Source: Planctomycetaceae bacterium (GTDB lineage Bacteria; Planctomycetota; Planctomycetia; Planctomycetales; Planctomycetaceae). From it: a stretch of DNA of 64,000 nt. The stretch spans positions 1-64,000 of the forward strand of contig OMIV01000287.1 of the NCBI GenBank assembly GCA_900299185.1. Direction: 5' to 3'. Shown here piece after piece: positions 42,809 through 54,513 of the stretch. Position 1 is the first letter of the stretch. Each line of letters starts with the position of its first letter. Under the pieces are notes generated by a model, which did not search any database, was not told where the DNA came from, and saw only the letters and a program-made list of their open reading frames with translations. Position numbers and translations under genes: made by a program.

Positions 42809-43120
42809 CAGAACGATCCCTCAGCCAGATGCATCAACGAGTCTAAGGCTCTCGACAGGAAGCCCAAGTCGGGACTCGATCAGTGTAAACGAATGCCGCC
42901 GAAGCCCCGATCGAGACACTCCTTTCGCATCGCCGAGACTCCCGTTGTGGCAATTCGATTCACTGACTTAACATCGCTGGAAATGAAGAATTGCGGTCCC
43001 TTCGTCGGCACATTTTCGTCGCGATGAACCGCTCGGCGAGCTTTGCTCAGCCCCATTGTCACATCGCGCGATCGCTGCACGAGCAGGGACGCCAAGAGAT
43101 TCTACGGAAGGTGGCCACTC
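42809..43120. other. Intergenic region between divergent SRAP and hopene cyclase genes
   Basis: About 310 bases with no gene. A longer frame reaches into this region from the cyclase but has no family character. The GGAAGGTGG ribosome site at the right edge belongs to the cyclase. Promoters for both neighbours should lie here but are not clear. Confidence 0.45.
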
Positions 43121-45271
43121 ATGAGTTCTGGTTGGCTGGGAGCCCAACGACGCTTTGATGACTCCTCATTTTCGCCTGCGCTGGCAGACGCCTTGCCCAG
43201 CGAATTAGGTGTCGCGCCGGGGAATCTCGAAGACGCCCCGCTCTACGAAGCCATTGGTCGAACTCGCGATTGGCTCATCAAGCAACAACACAAAGACGGC
43301 TATTGGGTTGGTGAACTCGAAGGAGACACCATCCTTGAATCGGAATACATCCTATTGCTGACCTGGATGGGCCAAGGAGAGTCCGAAGAAGTACGCCGAG
43401 CCGCGAAGTACATCGAACGTCAACAACTCGCAGCAGGTGGCTGGGCGATCTATCCCGGCGGGCCTCTTGAGATTAGTGCCTCGGTCAAAGCCTATTGGGC
43501 GCTGAAAATTGCGGGACATCGACCAGACGAAGCTCAAATGGTGCGAGCGCGCGAAGCAATTCTCGCTGCTGGCGGCGCCGAGAAAATGAACTCTTTCACT
43601 CGGTTCTATTTCGCATTGCTCGGTCAGATTTCCTACGACCAATGCCCTGCCGTGCCCCCCGAGTTAATGCTTCTCCCGAAGTGGGCTCCATTCAACATCT
43701 ACGAGATGTCCGCCTGGTCGCGAACCATTCTGGTTCCGCTGGCAATCATGTGGGCTTATCGCCCCGTGACGAAGCTGCGCCCCGAATGGAGTGCAGCCGA
43801 AATCTTCGTCAATTCCCCCGCCGATTTGCCGATGACAATGCCTCAGGCTGAAACACTCGACGCACTCAAGAAGAAGCGTTGGATCAACTGGCACGGCGTC
43901 TTCAACACCATCGATTTCGGGCTGAAAGTCCTCGAAAAATGCCACATTCGCCCCTTCCGTAAGCGATCAGTAAAGCTGGCGAAAGAGTGGATGCTTGCGA
44001 GGTTTGAAGACAGTGACGGCTTGGGAGCCATCTTTCCGCCAATCATTTGGAGCATCATCGCTCTGCGCTGCATGGGCTACGAAGAGAGTTCTCCGGAAGT
44101 TCAATCACAACTCTCTGAGCTAAAAGCTCTGATTGTTTCCGACGACGATTCAGACCATTTGCAGCCCTGTAAATCGCCCGTCTGGGACACATCCATCGCG
44201 ACCATTGCACTCCGCGACGCAGGTCTCAAACCCGATCACCCGACGTTGGAACGAGCCGTCGACTGGATGCTTTCTAAAGAGTGTCGTCGACCGGGAGACT
44301 GGGCCGCACGCGGTTCTAAGTGCGAGCCATCTGGTTGGTATTTCGAGTTCAATAACGATTTCTACCCGGACGTCGATGACACCTGCATGGTGGTCATGGC
44401 GTTGGCTCGTTGCTTGCCAACCAAGCTCGACTGGGATGCTGATTTCTTGCTCGATAACTGGAGTCCACACGAGTCCGACCGTGATGTGACGGCTGTGCTC
44501 GCAGCACGAAACGCTCACACGGATGTCGCCGCAGCGACTCAGATCGAGCGAATGCAGCCGATCTTGGGAGCAGTGCATCGCGGTGCTCGCTGGATCATGG
44601 AAATGCAGTCGGCGGATGGCGGTTGGGGAGCGTTCGACAAAGACAACACTCGAGAGCTTTTCACCCAAGTCCCTTTCGCCGATCACAACGCGATGATCGA
44701 CCCGAGTTCGGCGGACCTCACCTCTCGAATGCTCGAGATGTTTTCATACCTCAATGTCCCTGCAGATCATCCAGCATTGAAACGTGCTTTGACCTACATC
44801 TGGAGCGAGCAAGATCGCGAGCACTGTTGGTACGGCCGTTGGGGCGTCAATTACTTGTACGGAACCTGGCAATGCCTCGTCGGCTTAACGCGAATAGGCA
44901 TCTCACTCACCGATGCTCGCATTCGCAAAGCGGCAAATTGGCTGAAATCAGTCCAGCAACCAAGCGGTGGTTGGGGCGAGACTCCTCGCAGCTATGACGA
45001 TCCCGCGCTGAAAGGAAAAGGCCCGGCAACGGCATCACAAACAGCCTGGGCCTTGATGGGTCTCATCTCAGCAGGCGAAGGCGATTCAGATTCGGTACGC
45101 CGAGGAATCCAATACCTCATTGATTCCCAACATGATGACGGCACCTGGGACGAGCCGTGGTGGACCGGGACAGGTTTTCCCAAAGTCTTCTACCTGAAGT
45201 ATCACCTCTACCGCATTTCGTTCCCGCTCATGGCACTCTCGCGATACGCACGACTCAAGAGTCGTATGTAG
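43121..45271 (+). CDS. shc: Squalene-hopene cyclase
   Basis: Cyclises squalene to hopene, the first step of hopanoid membrane lipids, as a monotopic inner-membrane enzyme. The 716-residue protein carries the catalytic DXDD motif at 417-420 (DVDDTC) and several QW repeats such as QSADGGWGAFDKDN, QQPSGGWGE and QHDDGTWDE. The C-terminus (YLKYHLYRISFPLMALSRY) is typical. A region around HTDVAAATQIERM is a small insert. GGAAGGTGG precedes the ATG at 43121, chosen over the upstream ATG. ispD follows 87 bases downstream, so isoprenoid supply and hopanoid synthesis are adjacent. Confidence 0.95.
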   Translation: MSSGWLGAQRRFDDSSFSPALADALPSELGVAPGNLEDAPLYEAIGRTRDWLIKQQHKDGYWVGELEGDTILESEYILLLTWMGQGESEEVRRAAKYIERQQLAAGGWAIYPGGPLEISASVKAYWALKIAGHRPDEAQMVRAREAILAAGGAEKMNSFTRFYFALLGQISYDQCPAVPPELMLLPKWAPFNIYEMSAWSRTILVPLAIMWAYRPVTKLRPEWSAAEIFVNSPADLPMTMPQAETLDALKKKRWINWHGVFNTIDFGLKVLEKCHIRPFRKRSVKLAKEWMLARFEDSDGLGAIFPPIIWSIIALRCMGYEESSPEVQSQLSELKALIVSDDDSDHLQPCKSPVWDTSIATIALRDAGLKPDHPTLERAVDWMLSKECRRPGDWAARGSKCEPSGWYFEFNNDFYPDVDDTCMVVMALARCLPTKLDWDADFLLDNWSPHESDRDVTAVLAARNAHTDVAAATQIERMQPILGAVHRGARWIMEMQSADGGWGAFDKDNTRELFTQVPFADHNAMIDPSSADLTSRMLEMFSYLNVPADHPALKRALTYIWSEQDREHCWYGRWGVNYLYGTWQCLVGLTRIGISLTDARIRKAANWLKSVQQPSGGWGETPRSYDDPALKGKGPATASQTAWALMGLISAGEGDSDSVRRGIQYLIDSQHDDGTWDEPWWTGTGFPKVFYLKYHLYRISFPLMALSRYARLKSRM

Positions 45272-45358
45272 CATCCGCTTCCCCTCCGCTGCGACTGAAG
45301 ACGCACGGCAAACAGCCATCAGCCTACTCGGAGTGACTGACGGCTCTCGGAGTACTTC

Positions 45359-46132
45359 ATGCCAACATTCGCGGTCATCATTGCTGCAGCCGGAAAAAGC
45401 AGCCGTTTTGGCGGCTGCCAAGCTCGCGACAAGAAGGTTTTCCAGGAACTCAATGGCCGCGCCGTATGGATCCGAACCGCTGAAGCTTTCCTCGGGCGAG
45501 ATGACGTCAAGCAAACGCTCATCGTCCTCTCCCCCGAAGACATGGACTGGTTTAGAGATAAGTACCGTGCCAACTTAGCCTTCATGGATGTCGAGCTTGT
45601 CGAAGGCGGAGCTGAGCGATGTGACTCAGTCCAAAAGGCACTGGCGCGAGTGCGAAGCGACATCGAGTTCATCGCGGTTCACGATGCCGCTCGACCACTT
45701 ATTGCTAAGGACTGGATATCCAATGTGTTCGAGACAGCGGCACAATGCGATGCCGCAATTCTTGCAACGAAGATATCAAGCACCGTCAAACGCGCCGAAA
45801 ACGGCGTCATCCGGGAAACGGTCCCCCGAGATCAACTTTGGGCAGCTCAAACTCCGCAGGTCTTTCGACGCCAACTGCTGCTGGATGCATACGCCGCTCG
45901 AGGCAAACGACAACCAACCGACGACGCCGAACTTGTGGAGCAATTTGGACGCAACGTTGCGATCGTCGAAGGCTCGGCACTCAATCTGAAGATCACAACC
46001 CGAGAAGACCTTCGGATGGCAGAGGTCCTCCTGGACGTCTTGCCCAAAGAGAAGAACCTCGAAGCCCTGCATCCATTCGGCACCTCAAAAGGTCCTACCG
46101 CGGGCAAGCCGAAATGGCTTTTCGACTCGTAG
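45359..46132 (+). CDS. ispD: 2-C-methyl-D-erythritol 4-phosphate cytidylyltransferase IspD
   Basis: IspD activates MEP with CTP in the non-mevalonate isoprenoid route. The 257-residue protein has the nucleotide loop AAAGKSSRFG (9-18), HDAARP (108-113), TVPRDQLWAAQTPQVF and a C-terminal LKITTREDLRMAE, as expected for the family. GGAG is 6 bases before the ATG. It lies just downstream of squalene-hopene cyclase, which uses the end product of the pathway. Its 3' end overlaps the convergent csrA gene by 38 bases. Confidence 0.95.
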   Translation: MPTFAVIIAAAGKSSRFGGCQARDKKVFQELNGRAVWIRTAEAFLGRDDVKQTLIVLSPEDMDWFRDKYRANLAFMDVELVEGGAERCDSVQKALARVRSDIEFIAVHDAARPLIAKDWISNVFETAAQCDAAILATKISSTVKRAENGVIRETVPRDQLWAAQTPQVFRRQLLLDAYAARGKRQPTDDAELVEQFGRNVAIVEGSALNLKITTREDLRMAEVLLDVLPKEKNLEALHPFGTSKGPTAGKPKWLFDS

Positions 46133-48587: not shown

Positions 48588-49325
48588 ATGCGTGTGATAC
48601 CAGTGATGGACCTGATGAACTCGGTCGTCGTCCGCGCGATTGCTGGTCAACGTTCTGAATATCGCCCAGTCCAAAGTGTGCTCTGCCAAACCGCCGAGCC
48701 CCTTGAAGTGGCAGAAGCAATTCGATCCGAATTCGGATGGAATGAAGTCTACATCGCTGACCTCGATGCAATCCTGACCGAGGTTGTCAACTTCGAAACT
48801 TATGAAGCCCTTAGATCCGCAGGTTTTCGGTTATTTGTGGATTGTGGTCTGACAGAACCATCGACAGCCGAAGAAGCTCTGGCTGCGGGTGCAAAAAAAG
48901 TCATTGTAGGCTTGGAAACATGGCCTTTGCTCGCGTCGCTCGAGTTGCTCGTGCGACGCATCGGAAGCGATCAGATTTGCTTCAGCCTTGATCTTCGAAA
49001 CGGCCAAGCAATTCGAGGCTTTCGTGACATGGTCAGCTCGGATCCAATTGATATCGCAAGCGCCGTCATCGAGGCGGGAGTCCACGACATCATTGTGCTC
49101 GATCTCAAATCGGTCGGCACAGGAACCGGCCCTGCCACATTGCCGCTCTGTAGTCAGATCAAAGCGTTCTCAGAGAATTGCTCGATCATTACGGGAGGCG
49201 GCATTCGAAGCATCGAAGATCTCAAGATGCTGCAAAGAGAGGGGCTACAAGGCGCACTCGTAGCGACCGCAATTCACGACGGAACAATTCGCCCCGACGA
49301 TTTGGCGGCAGCCGGTTTTTCATGA
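48588..49325 (+). CDS. HisA/HisF-like TIM-barrel protein
   Basis: A 245-residue (beta/alpha)8 barrel with the HisA/HisF phosphate-binding half-barrel pattern. MRVIPVMDLMNSVVVRA at the N-terminus and ITGGGIRSIEDLKML near residue 205 correspond to the HisA N- and C-terminal motifs, but the usual HisA loop residues differ. Distant HisA-like proteins occur in tetrahydromethanopterin-linked gene sets in methanogens and planctomycetes, which is one possible role. No his genes are adjacent. AAGG is 8 bases before the ATG. The function is unassigned. Confidence 0.75.
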   Translation: MRVIPVMDLMNSVVVRAIAGQRSEYRPVQSVLCQTAEPLEVAEAIRSEFGWNEVYIADLDAILTEVVNFETYEALRSAGFRLFVDCGLTEPSTAEEALAAGAKKVIVGLETWPLLASLELLVRRIGSDQICFSLDLRNGQAIRGFRDMVSSDPIDIASAVIEAGVHDIIVLDLKSVGTGTGPATLPLCSQIKAFSENCSIITGGGIRSIEDLKMLQREGLQGALVATAIHDGTIRPDDLAAAGFS

Positions 49326-50143: not shown

Positions 50144-50926
50144 ATGTCCTTAACCGCCAAACAATCCGGTTGCCGCAAGCTGGTCCCACGGAGTCGGAGT
50201 CTTGTCAGGGACGTGCTTTGGCTTCATCGAGATGTTCCAACTTGCGTGCATCATCGCGATATGAACTTGTCCGAAGTCAGTGAGGCACGATCCGCCCTCG
50301 GCGAGCGAGTTTCATGGCCCGCCATCTTTCTCAAGGGCTATGGAACCGTCTGTGCTCGACATCCGAGGCTTTTGCAAACCTGGCAAAAATGGCCGATACC
50401 GCATGTGTTCCAACATGAAACTCCCGTCGCAACCGTCGCCGTACACAGGCGATATCAGGACGACGACTGGTTGTTGTGGGGCAAGATTCGAGATCCACAT
50501 TCTCAGTCATTTTTACAACTCCAAGCCGCGTTAGATCGCTTCACGACCGGTCCTGTCGAAGAGGTGTTCCGGCAAGAATTACAATTGGCTATGTTGCCGA
50601 CCCCGCTGCGACGACTGGTCTGGTGGTGGAATCTGAACCTCTGCGGTGAGAAGCGAGTTAAGCGAACCGGTTCCTTTCTCTTAACGACTCTCGCCGGACG
50701 AGGTGCCGAGAACCCACACCCGCCTAGCTTTCTGACAAGCTCCATTAGCTACTCTCCGTTGCGAGCAGATGGAACTTGCCAAGTCAGCATCATCTACGAC
50801 CACCGTTTAATGGATGGGGCATTCGTCGCAGATTGTTTGGGTGAACTAGAAAAGGAACTCAACGGAGACATCCTCGAAAACTTGCGAGCGATGGATTCGT
50901 CCAATCGCGATCGAAACGCGGCGTAG
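50144..50926 (+). CDS. Stand-alone E2-type acyltransferase domain protein
   Basis: A 260-residue protein similar to the catalytic domain of 2-oxoacid dehydrogenase E2 (CoA-dependent acyltransferase, chloramphenicol-acetyltransferase fold). The active-site signature DHRLMDG has catalytic His220 and Asp224. There is no lipoyl or subunit-binding domain, so it cannot act as an ordinary E2 core and may transfer an acyl group from CoA to another acceptor. SLRSLV..VLWLHRDVP at the N-terminus resembles related stand-alone planctomycete proteins. The gene precedes a P450 by 87 bases on the same strand. The start is uncertain. Confidence 0.72.
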   Translation: MSLTAKQSGCRKLVPRSRSLVRDVLWLHRDVPTCVHHRDMNLSEVSEARSALGERVSWPAIFLKGYGTVCARHPRLLQTWQKWPIPHVFQHETPVATVAVHRRYQDDDWLLWGKIRDPHSQSFLQLQAALDRFTTGPVEEVFRQELQLAMLPTPLRRLVWWWNLNLCGEKRVKRTGSFLLTTLAGRGAENPHPPSFLTSSISYSPLRADGTCQVSIIYDHRLMDGAFVADCLGELEKELNGDILENLRAMDSSNRDRNAA

Positions 50927-51013
50927 GATCTGCCGACTCGATTGCTTCGACACACCGAGAAACGCGCGGTGACCTCACAACCGCGTAACAGCCAATGCAG
51001 GGAAGTGCGGCTT

Positions 51014-52432
51014 ATGAATCTGCAGTCGACTGTCGTAAATGGGCTAACTGTCACTGACGGCAGTATTCGAGACTTCGCTGCCAACCCCATCGCATGCATG
51101 ACTTCGCTGCGGGAGCGTTTTGGGAATCTCGTCGCGTTGAACGAAGCTGGGCAGCAAGTGGTGTTCGCGTTCGGAGCCGACTTCAACAAAGAACTGCTAA
51201 GCCAAGCCGACCTCTTTCATTCACGGTTCTTTGCCGTGCGTGGTTCCAAAAACTCCGCCCAGCGACGGCTCACCAGCGGCCTGCTGTCGATGAACGGCCC
51301 CGAGCACATGCAGCAACGGCGAGTCGTGAAGGGCGCTTTCGGTCGGCATGCCATCACGGGTTATCGAGACGTTGTTCGCCAACTGACCGAAGACATGCTC
51401 GATGATTGGAAAGTCGGACAAGTTCGCGATGTGTCTTCAGACATGACTCGTCTGATGCTGCGAATCACCAGTTCGATTCTCTTCGGGATCAAGCGACCTG
51501 AACTCGCCTTTGAACTTGGCGAGATGATCCACAAATGGGTCGAGCTCAATCACGAAGTCGGTCCATCGGTCTTTATCTCGCAAGACGACTCATACAGTCG
51601 TTACGAAGAACTGTTGGCCTACTCCAAAGAAGTGGAATCGCGAGTACGCCAACTGTTGACCGAGCGGCGCAGCGAAGCCGCATCCGATTCCGACATGCTC
51701 TCACTCTTAATTCAATCGCACATGGCCGGAGAGGGCATCAGCGAGGACCAGTTGATCGGACAGACGGCCCTGCTCTTCGCGGCAGCTCACATGACGACGG
51801 CCCACTCGCTCTTATGGACGTTGTTCTTGATTGGGCAACATCCCGAACTCGCCGATCAATTGGATCACGAGCTTGAGACCATGACCGAGTTACCCGAAGA
51901 CGGCAGCTTACAAGCCTCGCCGCTGCTGCTTGATCGGGTCATTCGCGAGAGCATGCGCATCATGCCCGCCTCAGCGTACTCGCAGCGGATCGCGCAAGAA
52001 GAAGTGGTTCTCGGCAACGCCACGCTCCCCAAGGGCAGCATTGTGATCTTCAGCCAGTTCATGACCCACCGCACCGAGAAGATCTACATCGAGCCATCGC
52101 GTTTCATGCCCGAGCGTTGGCTCACCATTAAGCCGTCGCCGTACGAGTATTTGCCGTATGGTGGTGGCTCGCGTCTGTGCTTGGGCTCGACACTCGCGCT
52201 TTCAATCATGAGGGGAGTTCTGCCGACCATCTGGCGTCGATTCCGCATGAGCGCGATCCCTAACTCAGAGGTCAGTGCATTAGTTGTTTCAACAATGCTT
52301 GGCCCCACAACAACGGTCCCGATGCAACTTCATCAACCGGGTAGCCGAATCGATGTTGCTCCCCTGCGCGGCAACATCTCAGAGCTTGTCACGTTCGATA
52401 CCGAACGCCGAGCAATCCGCCGCGCGGCATAG
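51014..52432 (+). CDS. Cytochrome P450 with atypical I-helix
   Basis: A 472-residue soluble cytochrome P450. The ExxR motif is Glu312-Arg315 (VIRESMR) and the heme-binding loop is YGGGSRLCLG with axial Cys389. In the oxygen-activating I-helix, however, the expected AGx(D/E)TT reads AAHMTT: Ala for Gly and Met260 for the acid, with Thr261-Thr262 kept. This suggests altered proton delivery, as in P450s that use peroxide or rearrange substrates. GGGAAG 8 bases before the ATG at 51014 sets the start. It lies between an acyltransferase and a hydroxyacid dehydrogenase gene, consistent with a small biosynthetic unit. Substrate unknown. Confidence 0.92.
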   Translation: MNLQSTVVNGLTVTDGSIRDFAANPIACMTSLRERFGNLVALNEAGQQVVFAFGADFNKELLSQADLFHSRFFAVRGSKNSAQRRLTSGLLSMNGPEHMQQRRVVKGAFGRHAITGYRDVVRQLTEDMLDDWKVGQVRDVSSDMTRLMLRITSSILFGIKRPELAFELGEMIHKWVELNHEVGPSVFISQDDSYSRYEELLAYSKEVESRVRQLLTERRSEAASDSDMLSLLIQSHMAGEGISEDQLIGQTALLFAAAHMTTAHSLLWTLFLIGQHPELADQLDHELETMTELPEDGSLQASPLLLDRVIRESMRIMPASAYSQRIAQEEVVLGNATLPKGSIVIFSQFMTHRTEKIYIEPSRFMPERWLTIKPSPYEYLPYGGGSRLCLGSTLALSIMRGVLPTIWRRFRMSAIPNSEVSALVVSTMLGPTTTVPMQLHQPGSRIDVAPLRGNISELVTFDTERRAIRRAA

Positions 52433-52631
52433 TCTGACCGCGCGAACTCCCTTCAACGGTCGAGTTCGAATAACGTCGCCATCACGCGTCGACTCTTTGA
52501 CCTCTGAAGATCTAACGATGTCAGCCATGAGTTCGTCCGACTTCGGTTCGAACTCATCGCCAGCAGTCCTTCGCGTGCATCGAAACAAGCGACATCACGA
52601 GTCGTTGGCCATCATCAACAGGAGCAGCTTC

Positions 52632-53594
52632 ATGCCCAGCGTTGCCATCACGGACTTCACATTCCCCAACCTGGAGATCGAGGAGTCGATCCTCACGGCA
52701 TCGGGAGCCCAGCTCGTCAGCGGGCAATGCAAGACTCCCGAGACTTTGATTCCATTGGTCGCGTCAGCGGATGCCGTCATCACTCAATTTGCTCCCGTGA
52801 AGGCTGATGTCATCAACGCGATGACGAAAGCTCGCGTCATCGTGCGCTACGGTATTGGAGTCGATAACGTCGATCTGGAAGCTGCTCGCGTTCGAGGGAT
52901 TCCCGTTTGCAATGTGCCCGACTACTGCATTGATGAAGTCGCCGACCACACGCTTGCCTTTATTCTGGCCACGACCCGCCAAGTCATGCAGAACTGCTTG
53001 CTCATCCGCGACAACAAATGGGGGCTCGGCACAACGCTCGATCAAATGCGAACCATGCGAGATCAAGCCGTTGGCATCGTGGGCTTTGGTCGCATTGGTC
53101 GAGAAGTTGCCGCACGAATTGGAGCCCTCAAGAGTCGCCGCTTGGTCTTCGATCCTGTCGTGCCTGCCGAGACGATTCGAGCAGCCGGATGCGAGCCGGT
53201 TACTCTGCCTGATCTGCTTTCTCAATCAGACATCGTCACCTTGCATTGCCCATCCACGGCTCAAACTCGCAAGCTACTTAACGCCGAGTCGCTAGCCCAA
53301 ATGAAGCCAGGCTCAATCGTCATCAATCTGGCTCGTGGCGATCTCATCGACACTCCAGCGTTTGTCGTAGCCCTCCAGTCGGGTCACTTGAGCGCGGCAG
53401 CGATCGATGTCTGTGACCCCGAGCCGATCCCACTTGATAGCCCACTGAGATCGCTGCCCAACGTTATCACGGCGTCGCATGTTGCTTCCGCGAGTCCGAA
53501 GGCCGTTCGCACGTTACGAGAGACCGCCGCTCGCATCGCCACGATGGCCTTGCGCGGCGAATCGCTTCCCAACGTCGTCAATGGAGTCAAATGA
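52632..53594 (+). CDS. D-2-hydroxyacid dehydrogenase (phosphoglycerate-dehydrogenase-like)
   Basis: A 320-residue NAD-dependent dehydrogenase of the D-isomer 2-hydroxyacid family, shorter than SerA because it lacks the regulatory ACT domain. The NAD loop is GFGRIG (151-156). Catalytic residues follow the family: Arg235 in NLARGDLID, Glu264 in CDPEP and His283 in ASHVAS. RYGIGVDNVD matches 3-phosphoglycerate-type substrates. AGGAG 7 bases before the ATG at 52632 sets the start. The next gene starts one base after the stop, so the two are surely coupled. The substrate is unknown. Confidence 0.9.
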   Translation: MPSVAITDFTFPNLEIEESILTASGAQLVSGQCKTPETLIPLVASADAVITQFAPVKADVINAMTKARVIVRYGIGVDNVDLEAARVRGIPVCNVPDYCIDEVADHTLAFILATTRQVMQNCLLIRDNKWGLGTTLDQMRTMRDQAVGIVGFGRIGREVAARIGALKSRRLVFDPVVPAETIRAAGCEPVTLPDLLSQSDIVTLHCPSTAQTRKLLNAESLAQMKPGSIVINLARGDLIDTPAFVVALQSGHLSAAAIDVCDPEPIPLDSPLRSLPNVITASHVASASPKAVRTLRETAARIATMALRGESLPNVVNGVK

Positions 53595-53595
53595 G

Positions 53596-54513
53596 ATGAG
53601 CAACACCGTTCTGGTTACTGGTGGCAGTGGCTTCATTGGAAGTTGGGTGCTTCGCGACCTCGTACAACATGGGCATCGAGCCGTAGTTGTTGACGTCGCC
53701 CCAGCTCATCAACGCTGGCAACGCATCATTGGCGAGCAAGCTCGTGAGTTGATCTGGGCCGAAGCCAAGCTCACGGACCGCGAGGCGTTGCGAGCAGTCA
53801 TCGAACAGCACGGCGTCACGCACATCATTCACTTGGCAGCGTTGCTGACGCCTCAATGTCAGCAAGATCCCTGGCGAGGTTGTGAAATCAACGTTCTCGG
53901 CAGTACGAGCGTTTTCGATGCAGCTCGAGTTTCGGGCCGAGTGAAGTCCATTTCGTATGCCAGCTCTTACGCGGTTTACGGCCCCGAGTCAGCAGATAAC
54001 AACGACGGCCCCAATCGACCGCCCATGTTTTATGGAGCGTTCAAGCAGGCGGTAGACCTCATCACCGAGCAGTACTGGCGGCATAGTGGCATCGCTTCGG
54101 TAGCCGTTCGACCGCATGTGGTTTACGGACCGGAGCGTGACCAGGGGCTGACTGCTGGTCCGTCTCTGGCCTGCAAAGCTGCGGTATGTGGCGACTCTTA
54201 CACAGTCGGTTATACCGGACGAGTGGGATACGACTACGTTGAAGATGTAGCGCGAGCGTTCGTTCGATCGGTATTTGAATGCCCTCCGGGAGCAACCGTC
54301 GCGGACTTGCCAGGCGAGCAAGCTTCGACCGAAGAATTTGTGCGAGCGATCGAAGCAGTCGTCCCATCGGCAGCCGGGCGACTGCACGTCGACGGCCCGG
54401 CTATTCCCGCCAACATTCCGCCGCAGCCGAACTACATCTCAAACCTCTTCCCAGACTGGGTACCAACCTCGTTGAGCGAAGGCGTGCGAAAGACCGTCGA
54501 CTTCTACCGCTAG
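53596..54513 (+). CDS. NAD-dependent epimerase/dehydratase family protein
   Basis: A 305-residue extended SDR. The Rossmann loop TGGSGFIG is at 8-15, and the catalytic Tyr146 and Lys150 sit in FYGAFKQA with SYASSYAVYG before it as the Ser-containing strand. These enzymes act on nucleotide sugars or related dehydrations; the C-terminal half, where substrate binds, is not diagnostic. The ATG is one base past the preceding stop codon and GGAG lies 9 bases upstream inside that gene, which indicates translational coupling with the hydroxyacid dehydrogenase. Confidence 0.88.
   Translation: MSNTVLVTGGSGFIGSWVLRDLVQHGHRAVVVDVAPAHQRWQRIIGEQARELIWAEAKLTDREALRAVIEQHGVTHIIHLAALLTPQCQQDPWRGCEINVLGSTSVFDAARVSGRVKSISYASSYAVYGPESADNNDGPNRPPMFYGAFKQAVDLITEQYWRHSGIASVAVRPHVVYGPERDQGLTAGPSLACKAAVCGDSYTVGYTGRVGYDYVEDVARAFVRSVFECPPGATVADLPGEQASTEEFVRAIEAVVPSAAGRLHVDGPAIPANIPPQPNYISNLFPDWVPTSLSEGVRKTVDFYR

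Follow-up and report, generated by a model that had tools for sequence, protein, structure and literature searches.

A conserved pair of genes for a lipoyl-free E2-type acyltransferase and a cytochrome P450 in Planctomycetaceae

Genes at the locus

The window (the whole 64,000-nucleotide stretch of DNA that was analysed) comes from contig 287 of a 7.87 Mb planctomycete genome that is held in 383 contigs and is 97% complete. Four neighbouring genes lie on its + strand, separated by gaps of 87, 199 and 1 bases: an E2-type acyltransferase (AT), a cytochrome P450, a D-2-hydroxyacid dehydrogenase (DH) and an NAD-dependent epimerase/dehydratase-type SDR (EPI) (Table 1). A preliminary description had named the four genes in this way, and reading frames, domain searches and a structural model bear it out. 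Start codons for the P450, DH and EPI were chosen by reading frame and by comparison with the starts in relatives; for the P450 the ATG at 51014 was taken, the longest reading frame beginning with the TTG at 50942. Orthologues of each of the four genes were found at 40-82% identity, so the gene set is not a product of chance. Neither a sigma-70-like promoter nor a terminator-like site on the + strand was found within the four genes, absences that carry little weight in planctomycetes.

Table 1. Positions of the four genes and their main features in the window
Feature	Position	Strand	Remarks
Lipoyl-free E2-type acyltransferase (AT), 260 aa	50144..50926	+	ATG start; orthologues in 64/150 family genomes
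AT active-site motif DHRLMDG (His220, Asp224)	50798..50818	+	Invariant core in 21 sequences
AT C-terminal Ala-Ala	50918..50923	+	38/65 AT homologues vs background 34/1082
Cytochrome P450, 472 aa, with C-terminal tail	51014..52432	+	Orthologues in 90/150 family genomes
P450 atypical I-helix AAAHMTTAH: Met260 for acid, Thr261 and His264 kept	51779..51805	+	24/24 orthologues Leu, Met or Lys
P450 ExxR motif ESMR	51947..51958	+	Invariant, 24 orthologues
P450 haem-ligand Cys389	52178..52180	+	Invariant, 24 orthologues
P450 C-terminal Ala-Ala	52424..52429	+	24/24 orthologues; synonymous codon variation
D-2-hydroxyacid dehydrogenase (DH; 2-Hacid_dh/PGDH-like)	52632..53594	+	Pfam; separate module
NAD-dependent epimerase/dehydratase-type SDR (EPI)	53596..54513	+	Pfam; separate module, paired with DH

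Conservation of the acyltransferase and the P450

Each protein was searched for in one set of 150 genomes from the order, which all fall in a single family (judged from named relatives to be Planctomycetaceae in the broad sense), and orthology was set by score: above 200 bits for AT, 330 for the P450, 300 for EPI and 350 for DH. Genes in the relatives were called by a simple longest-ORF method, and absences in draft genomes may reflect assembly gaps; the AT count includes one gene split over two contigs. The P450 orthologues are 42-62% identical. AT and P450 adjoin in eight loci, the window and seven others (L086, L087, L088, L090, L092, L093 and L100), which amount to 7 of the 66 AT loci of named genomes when the window is left aside. 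Gaps between the two genes run from -4 to 291 bases (seven loci, measured to the longest P450 reading frame), and P450 identity within the tandem falls as low as 49%. The genome of a congener (G119) has both genes side by side on its contig 42. In each gene tree the linked loci make up one clade (support 100/100 for the P450 and 98/94 for AT), and the branching order within that clade is the same in both, which argues that the two genes were inherited together while their neighbours changed. A caution applies to the window and L086, whose long branches come together in the AT tree; the P450 tree also groups them. AT and P450 are thus a real conserved pair with congruent trees. A search of a literature library turned up no description of a pair like this in planctomycetes, and it is plausible that this is an undescribed enzyme duo of planctomycetes.

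The two genes also occur together beyond the tandem, in genomes where they lie far apart. The P450 is present in 59 of the 64 AT genomes (Fisher 7e-13, a value confounded by shared ancestry) and accompanies AT in 13 of 14 genera (p=0.004), this genus table being as far as ancestry was corrected. Across a phylum-wide sample of 199 genomes, strong matches to either protein were confined to the family, with the exception of two P450s at 33-36% identity. The preliminary description had suggested a small undescribed biosynthetic pathway of all four genes; for AT and the P450, the adjacency, congruent trees and co-occurrence beyond linkage speak in its favour.

The P450 is one of several partners of AT. 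An SDR gene follows AT directly in 14 of the 66 AT loci, a PhyH gene directly precedes it in 4 and a fatty-acid desaturase gene directly follows it in 1. AT is present in 43 of the 44 genomes with the SDR orthologue (a nesting confounded by shared ancestry); in the exception (G144) the SDR lies at the very start of a contig. No orthologue of the SDR was found at E<=1e-60 in the genera with the tandem (g1, g32 and g43), and SDR and P450 look like alternative partners of AT. AT and SDR overlap by 4 bases in several planctomycetes and likewise in Sinorhizobium and Ensifer, where a free protein annotated “2-oxo acid dehydrogenase subunit E2” is 39% identical to AT. The rhizobial SDR, however, is of a different lineage (35% over 184 aa against the planctomycete SDR), its best profile match is mycolate reductase, below cut-off, and no P450 was seen adjoining. 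These rhizobial genes lie on plasmids (L157:8971-10637 and L158:8971-10628) with a common upstream set of an L,D-transpeptidase, a small “ABC transporter” protein and a hypothetical protein; a Rhizobium jaguaris locus carries no annotation.

A shared C-terminus

All 24 P450 orthologues compared (P450 and AT orthologues come from the window and the L026-L065 and L086-L151 loci) end in Ala-Ala, on a tail that extends about 12 residues beyond the end of several outgroup P450s. The two alanines are encoded variously by GCC, GCG, GCA and GCT, so selection acts on the protein. The same ending is common among AT homologues, set against 3% of the remaining genes (150 aa or longer) at these loci (Table 1), and of 51 families compared only those of P450 and AT have it in more than half of their members. 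Two related P450s of another genus (L163 and L164) share it too. Such a tail resembles known C-terminal degrons of the ClpXP type. The CtrA protein of Caulobacter, a ClpXP substrate, becomes more stable once aspartate replaces its C-terminal alanines (PMC4433202). By analogy, we would guess that the planctomycete tail may be a degradation signal. The shared ending is an unexpected link between genes that are often unlinked, and it may offer a way into testing regulated proteolysis in planctomycetes. Ala-Ala endings were also seen elsewhere: near a solo P450 orthologue (L029:12629-15839), a run of genes for a 186-aa protein, an SDR, a NeuD-type acetyltransferase and a KAS III has them in three of its four products, and at L080:13712-16338 and in L081 an adjoining 378-aa protein (acyltransferase-3-like by eye) and DegT-type aminotransferase both end in this way.

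Most genomes with both AT and the P450 have them unlinked, and the tandem arose once, as would be expected if they were lipid enzymes of separate pathways whose adjacency is an accident kept in one clade. Against this, the pair has stayed together, at 46-62% protein identity, through changes in the other neighbours, AT is found almost only where the P450 is, and the C-terminal Ala-Ala is common to both. We regard separate pathways as possible, if rather doubtful.

The acyltransferase

AT falls short of the Pfam cut-off for E2 catalytic domains (20.8 bits against 23 for PF00198), and no solved relative was found by sequence up to E=1. Its AlphaFold model (pLDDT 92) nevertheless matches E2 catalytic cores at Z of about 22, which upholds the E2-type assignment, and chloramphenicol acetyltransferase (CAT) at Z 14.5. 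Tyr218, Asp-His-Arg 219-221, Asp224 and Gly225 are invariant in the 21 sequences aligned. With the E2p, E2b and E2o cores (PF00198) AT thus has in common the fold, the size of the catalytic domain and the HxxxDG motif (here as DHRxxDG), but it differs from a 2-oxoacid dehydrogenase E2 in having neither lipoyl nor subunit-binding domain (no such Pfam match in its 260 aa) and in its low identity (12-20%); its neighbours are redox enzymes, with no E1 or E3 gene recognised among them. CAT belongs to the same fold superfamily and is likewise a stand-alone enzyme with a catalytic histidine, although identity is only 8% and a resistance context is absent. The E2 domain that is fused in actinobacterial OdhA/KGD has no lipoyl domain. 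AT resembles it in this respect (structure matches 8p5v and 8p5r) but is a free protein adjoining a P450 or SDR, unfused to E1o. Relatives of AT among the named genomes belong to Planctomycetaceae, Schlesneria, Fuerstiella and Planctomyces MAGs.

The fold and the DHRxxDG motif would also suit the catalytic E2 subunit of a 2-oxoacid dehydrogenase complex whose lipoyl protein is a separate chain. We consider this unlikely: gene-by-gene reading of 18 loci showed nothing recognisable as an E1, E3 or lipoyl gene beside AT, its recurrent partners are redox enzymes, and its sequence similarity to E2s is very low. Our best guess for AT is a CoA-dependent O-acyltransferase whose redox partner makes the acceptor, a hydroxyl that probably sits on a lipid.

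The dehydrogenase and the epimerase

Both Pfam domains of DH (2-Hacid_dh and 2-Hacid_dh_C, the latter at 173 bits) and the PF01370 domain of EPI (117.8 bits) score above cut-off; among the NCBIfam matches listed for EPI, none reaches an equivalog cut-off. Orthologues were counted in about 55 (DH) and about 45 (EPI) of the 150 genomes, and at least 14 other genomes have DH immediately upstream of EPI (G024, G025, G038, G040, G045, G047, G052, G053, G059, G070, G084, G099, G116 and G127). Genes around DH, with or without EPI, encode Ldh_2, a cyclase, an FAA_hydrolase (FAH), an FGGY kinase, a GntR regulator, an E1-type dehydrogenase, an SDR close to gluconate 5-dehydrogenase and a transporter-like protein without a Pfam match, families that we take to be those of sugar-acid catabolism. 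In relatives, then, such modules (Ldh_2, FAH, cyclase, GntR) hold the DH-EPI pair, whereas in the window only DH and EPI remain together; Ldh_2 genes of the same genome lie on five other contigs. DH and EPI form a fragment of a catabolic module, the rest of which lies elsewhere, and a sugar acid would be their substrate.

It is tempting to read the four genes as one biosynthetic pathway peculiar to this genome, given the common strand, the short gaps (a single base between the last two) and the lack of any + strand terminator-like site inside. No other genome of the 150 joins all four, however, and in the congeneric G119, which keeps the AT-P450 pair, EPI lies on a different contig (45) and the DH orthologue is absent (best match E 4e-46). 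With the DH-EPI pair belonging to a catabolic neighbourhood elsewhere, a single pathway is very unlikely, and the earlier suggestion of one does not extend to these two genes. Very probably the locus consists of two independent two-gene units, placed head to tail and neighbours by chance; a testable pair takes the place of the four-gene cluster.

The P450 and its affinities

The P450 is the only one in the window's genome. It scores 191.5 bits against Pfam p450 and has its ExxR and haem-cysteine motifs intact, so that by sequence it is not a dead enzyme. The I-helix had been flagged as atypical, and it is so throughout the family: the consensus of 24 orthologues is [AG]A[AGS][HQ][LMK]T[TS][AS]H, with Thr261 and a new His, His264, invariant and the usual acid replaced in every one. 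Of the acid-alcohol pair (common in P450s, not absolute) the Thr is kept. Glutamate occupies the acid position in nine readable outgroup P450s of the same phylum and in two from plasmids, a count from which rows L165 and L166 were left out. The I-helix acid of P450s is thought to help in the activation of O2, and a P450 without it may not be an ordinary hydroxylase. The family provides a natural set of P450s lacking this acid, kept across a whole bacterial family, in which one could ask how oxygen activation manages in its absence. Among solved structures CYP184A1, found with oleic acid, is nearest in fold; it shares the P450 fold and haem motifs, but identity is only about 23% and the fold is generic. 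Plasmid-borne relatives, at about 30% identity, have an uninformative context.

Several profile matches of the P450 are to terpenoid oxygenases, and a squalene-hopene cyclase gene (43043-45271) lies about 5 kb upstream of the pair, which raises the idea that AT and P450 tailor hopanoids. This is very improbable: about 30 genomes with both genes, some of them drafts, have no strong cyclase match, and in the remaining genomes the best match is not near AT-P450. Within the window the cyclase is followed on the same strand by IspD (43043-46132); several genera with AT and P450 lack a strong match to this cyclase. Two genomes that belong to one genus have a different P450 paralogue about 270 bases from the squalene-hopene cyclase (L170, at G106:C97:147217-148464, with the canonical Glu in its I-helix, and G050:C163:41402-42649). 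Compared with the P450 of the window, this paralogue is the better candidate for a hopanoid enzyme.

The best NCBIfam match of the P450 is ApyO (NF050147), an enzyme that works within a gene cluster (PMC11117315), and the haem motifs are common to both; yet 297.7 bits is far below the curated equivalog cut-off of 525, no conserved small ORF was found within 2.5 kb on either side of the P450 in 24 loci, and, AT aside, neighbour families recur in no more than 3 of 20 P450 loci, so that an ApyO-like cross-linker of RiPPs is a highly improbable reading. The small ORFs that did recur are antisense within AT or, in close relatives, fall in neighbouring genes.

A possible function for the pair

AT would be a CoA-dependent transferase with a catalytic histidine, and its neighbours make or unmake hydroxyls, so that acylation of a hydroxyl is the simplest reading. 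In the mechanism that we propose, the P450 would oxidise something hydrophobic, for which a fatty-acyl or other lipid chain is the likeliest candidate. AT, with its E2/CAT fold and no lipoyl arm, would then transfer an acyl group from CoA to the new hydroxyl by means of the DHRxxDG histidine; we infer the order of reactions, the acyl donor and the hydroxyl acceptor. AT would be constant throughout, with the redox enzyme that forms the hydroxyl changing from case to case (P450, SDR or, in a few relatives, a PhyH-type dioxygenase). We put this explanation as a whole, two units with AT-P450 as a tailoring unit, at a probability of roughly 0.4. Taken by itself, O-acylation of the P450 product by AT is a tentative proposal, and a lipid as the substrate a more doubtful one; a lipid context is weakly suggested by the CYP184A1-oleic acid fold, by the desaturase next to one AT and by the mycolate-reductase-like SDR of the rhizobia. 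If AT does acylate P450 products, E2-fold enzymes freed of the lipoyl arm would gain a tailoring role beside the precedent of CAT.

More speculatively, the features might combine into a lineage-specific lipid tailoring system in which a P450 with a rebuilt proton relay (L/M-T-T-x-H for E-T-T) and a free E2-type enzyme for O-acylation would operate with interchangeable SDR, PhyH and P450 partners, the shared Ala-Ala letting an AAA+ protease such as ClpXP control the enzymes together; we hold this to be fairly improbable.

At 48588-49325 the window also encodes a HisA/HisF-related protein. Its nearest family, matched below cut-off, is TIGR00734, whose role is unsettled, and a relative of the protein is found near AT in two other loci (L050 and L051).
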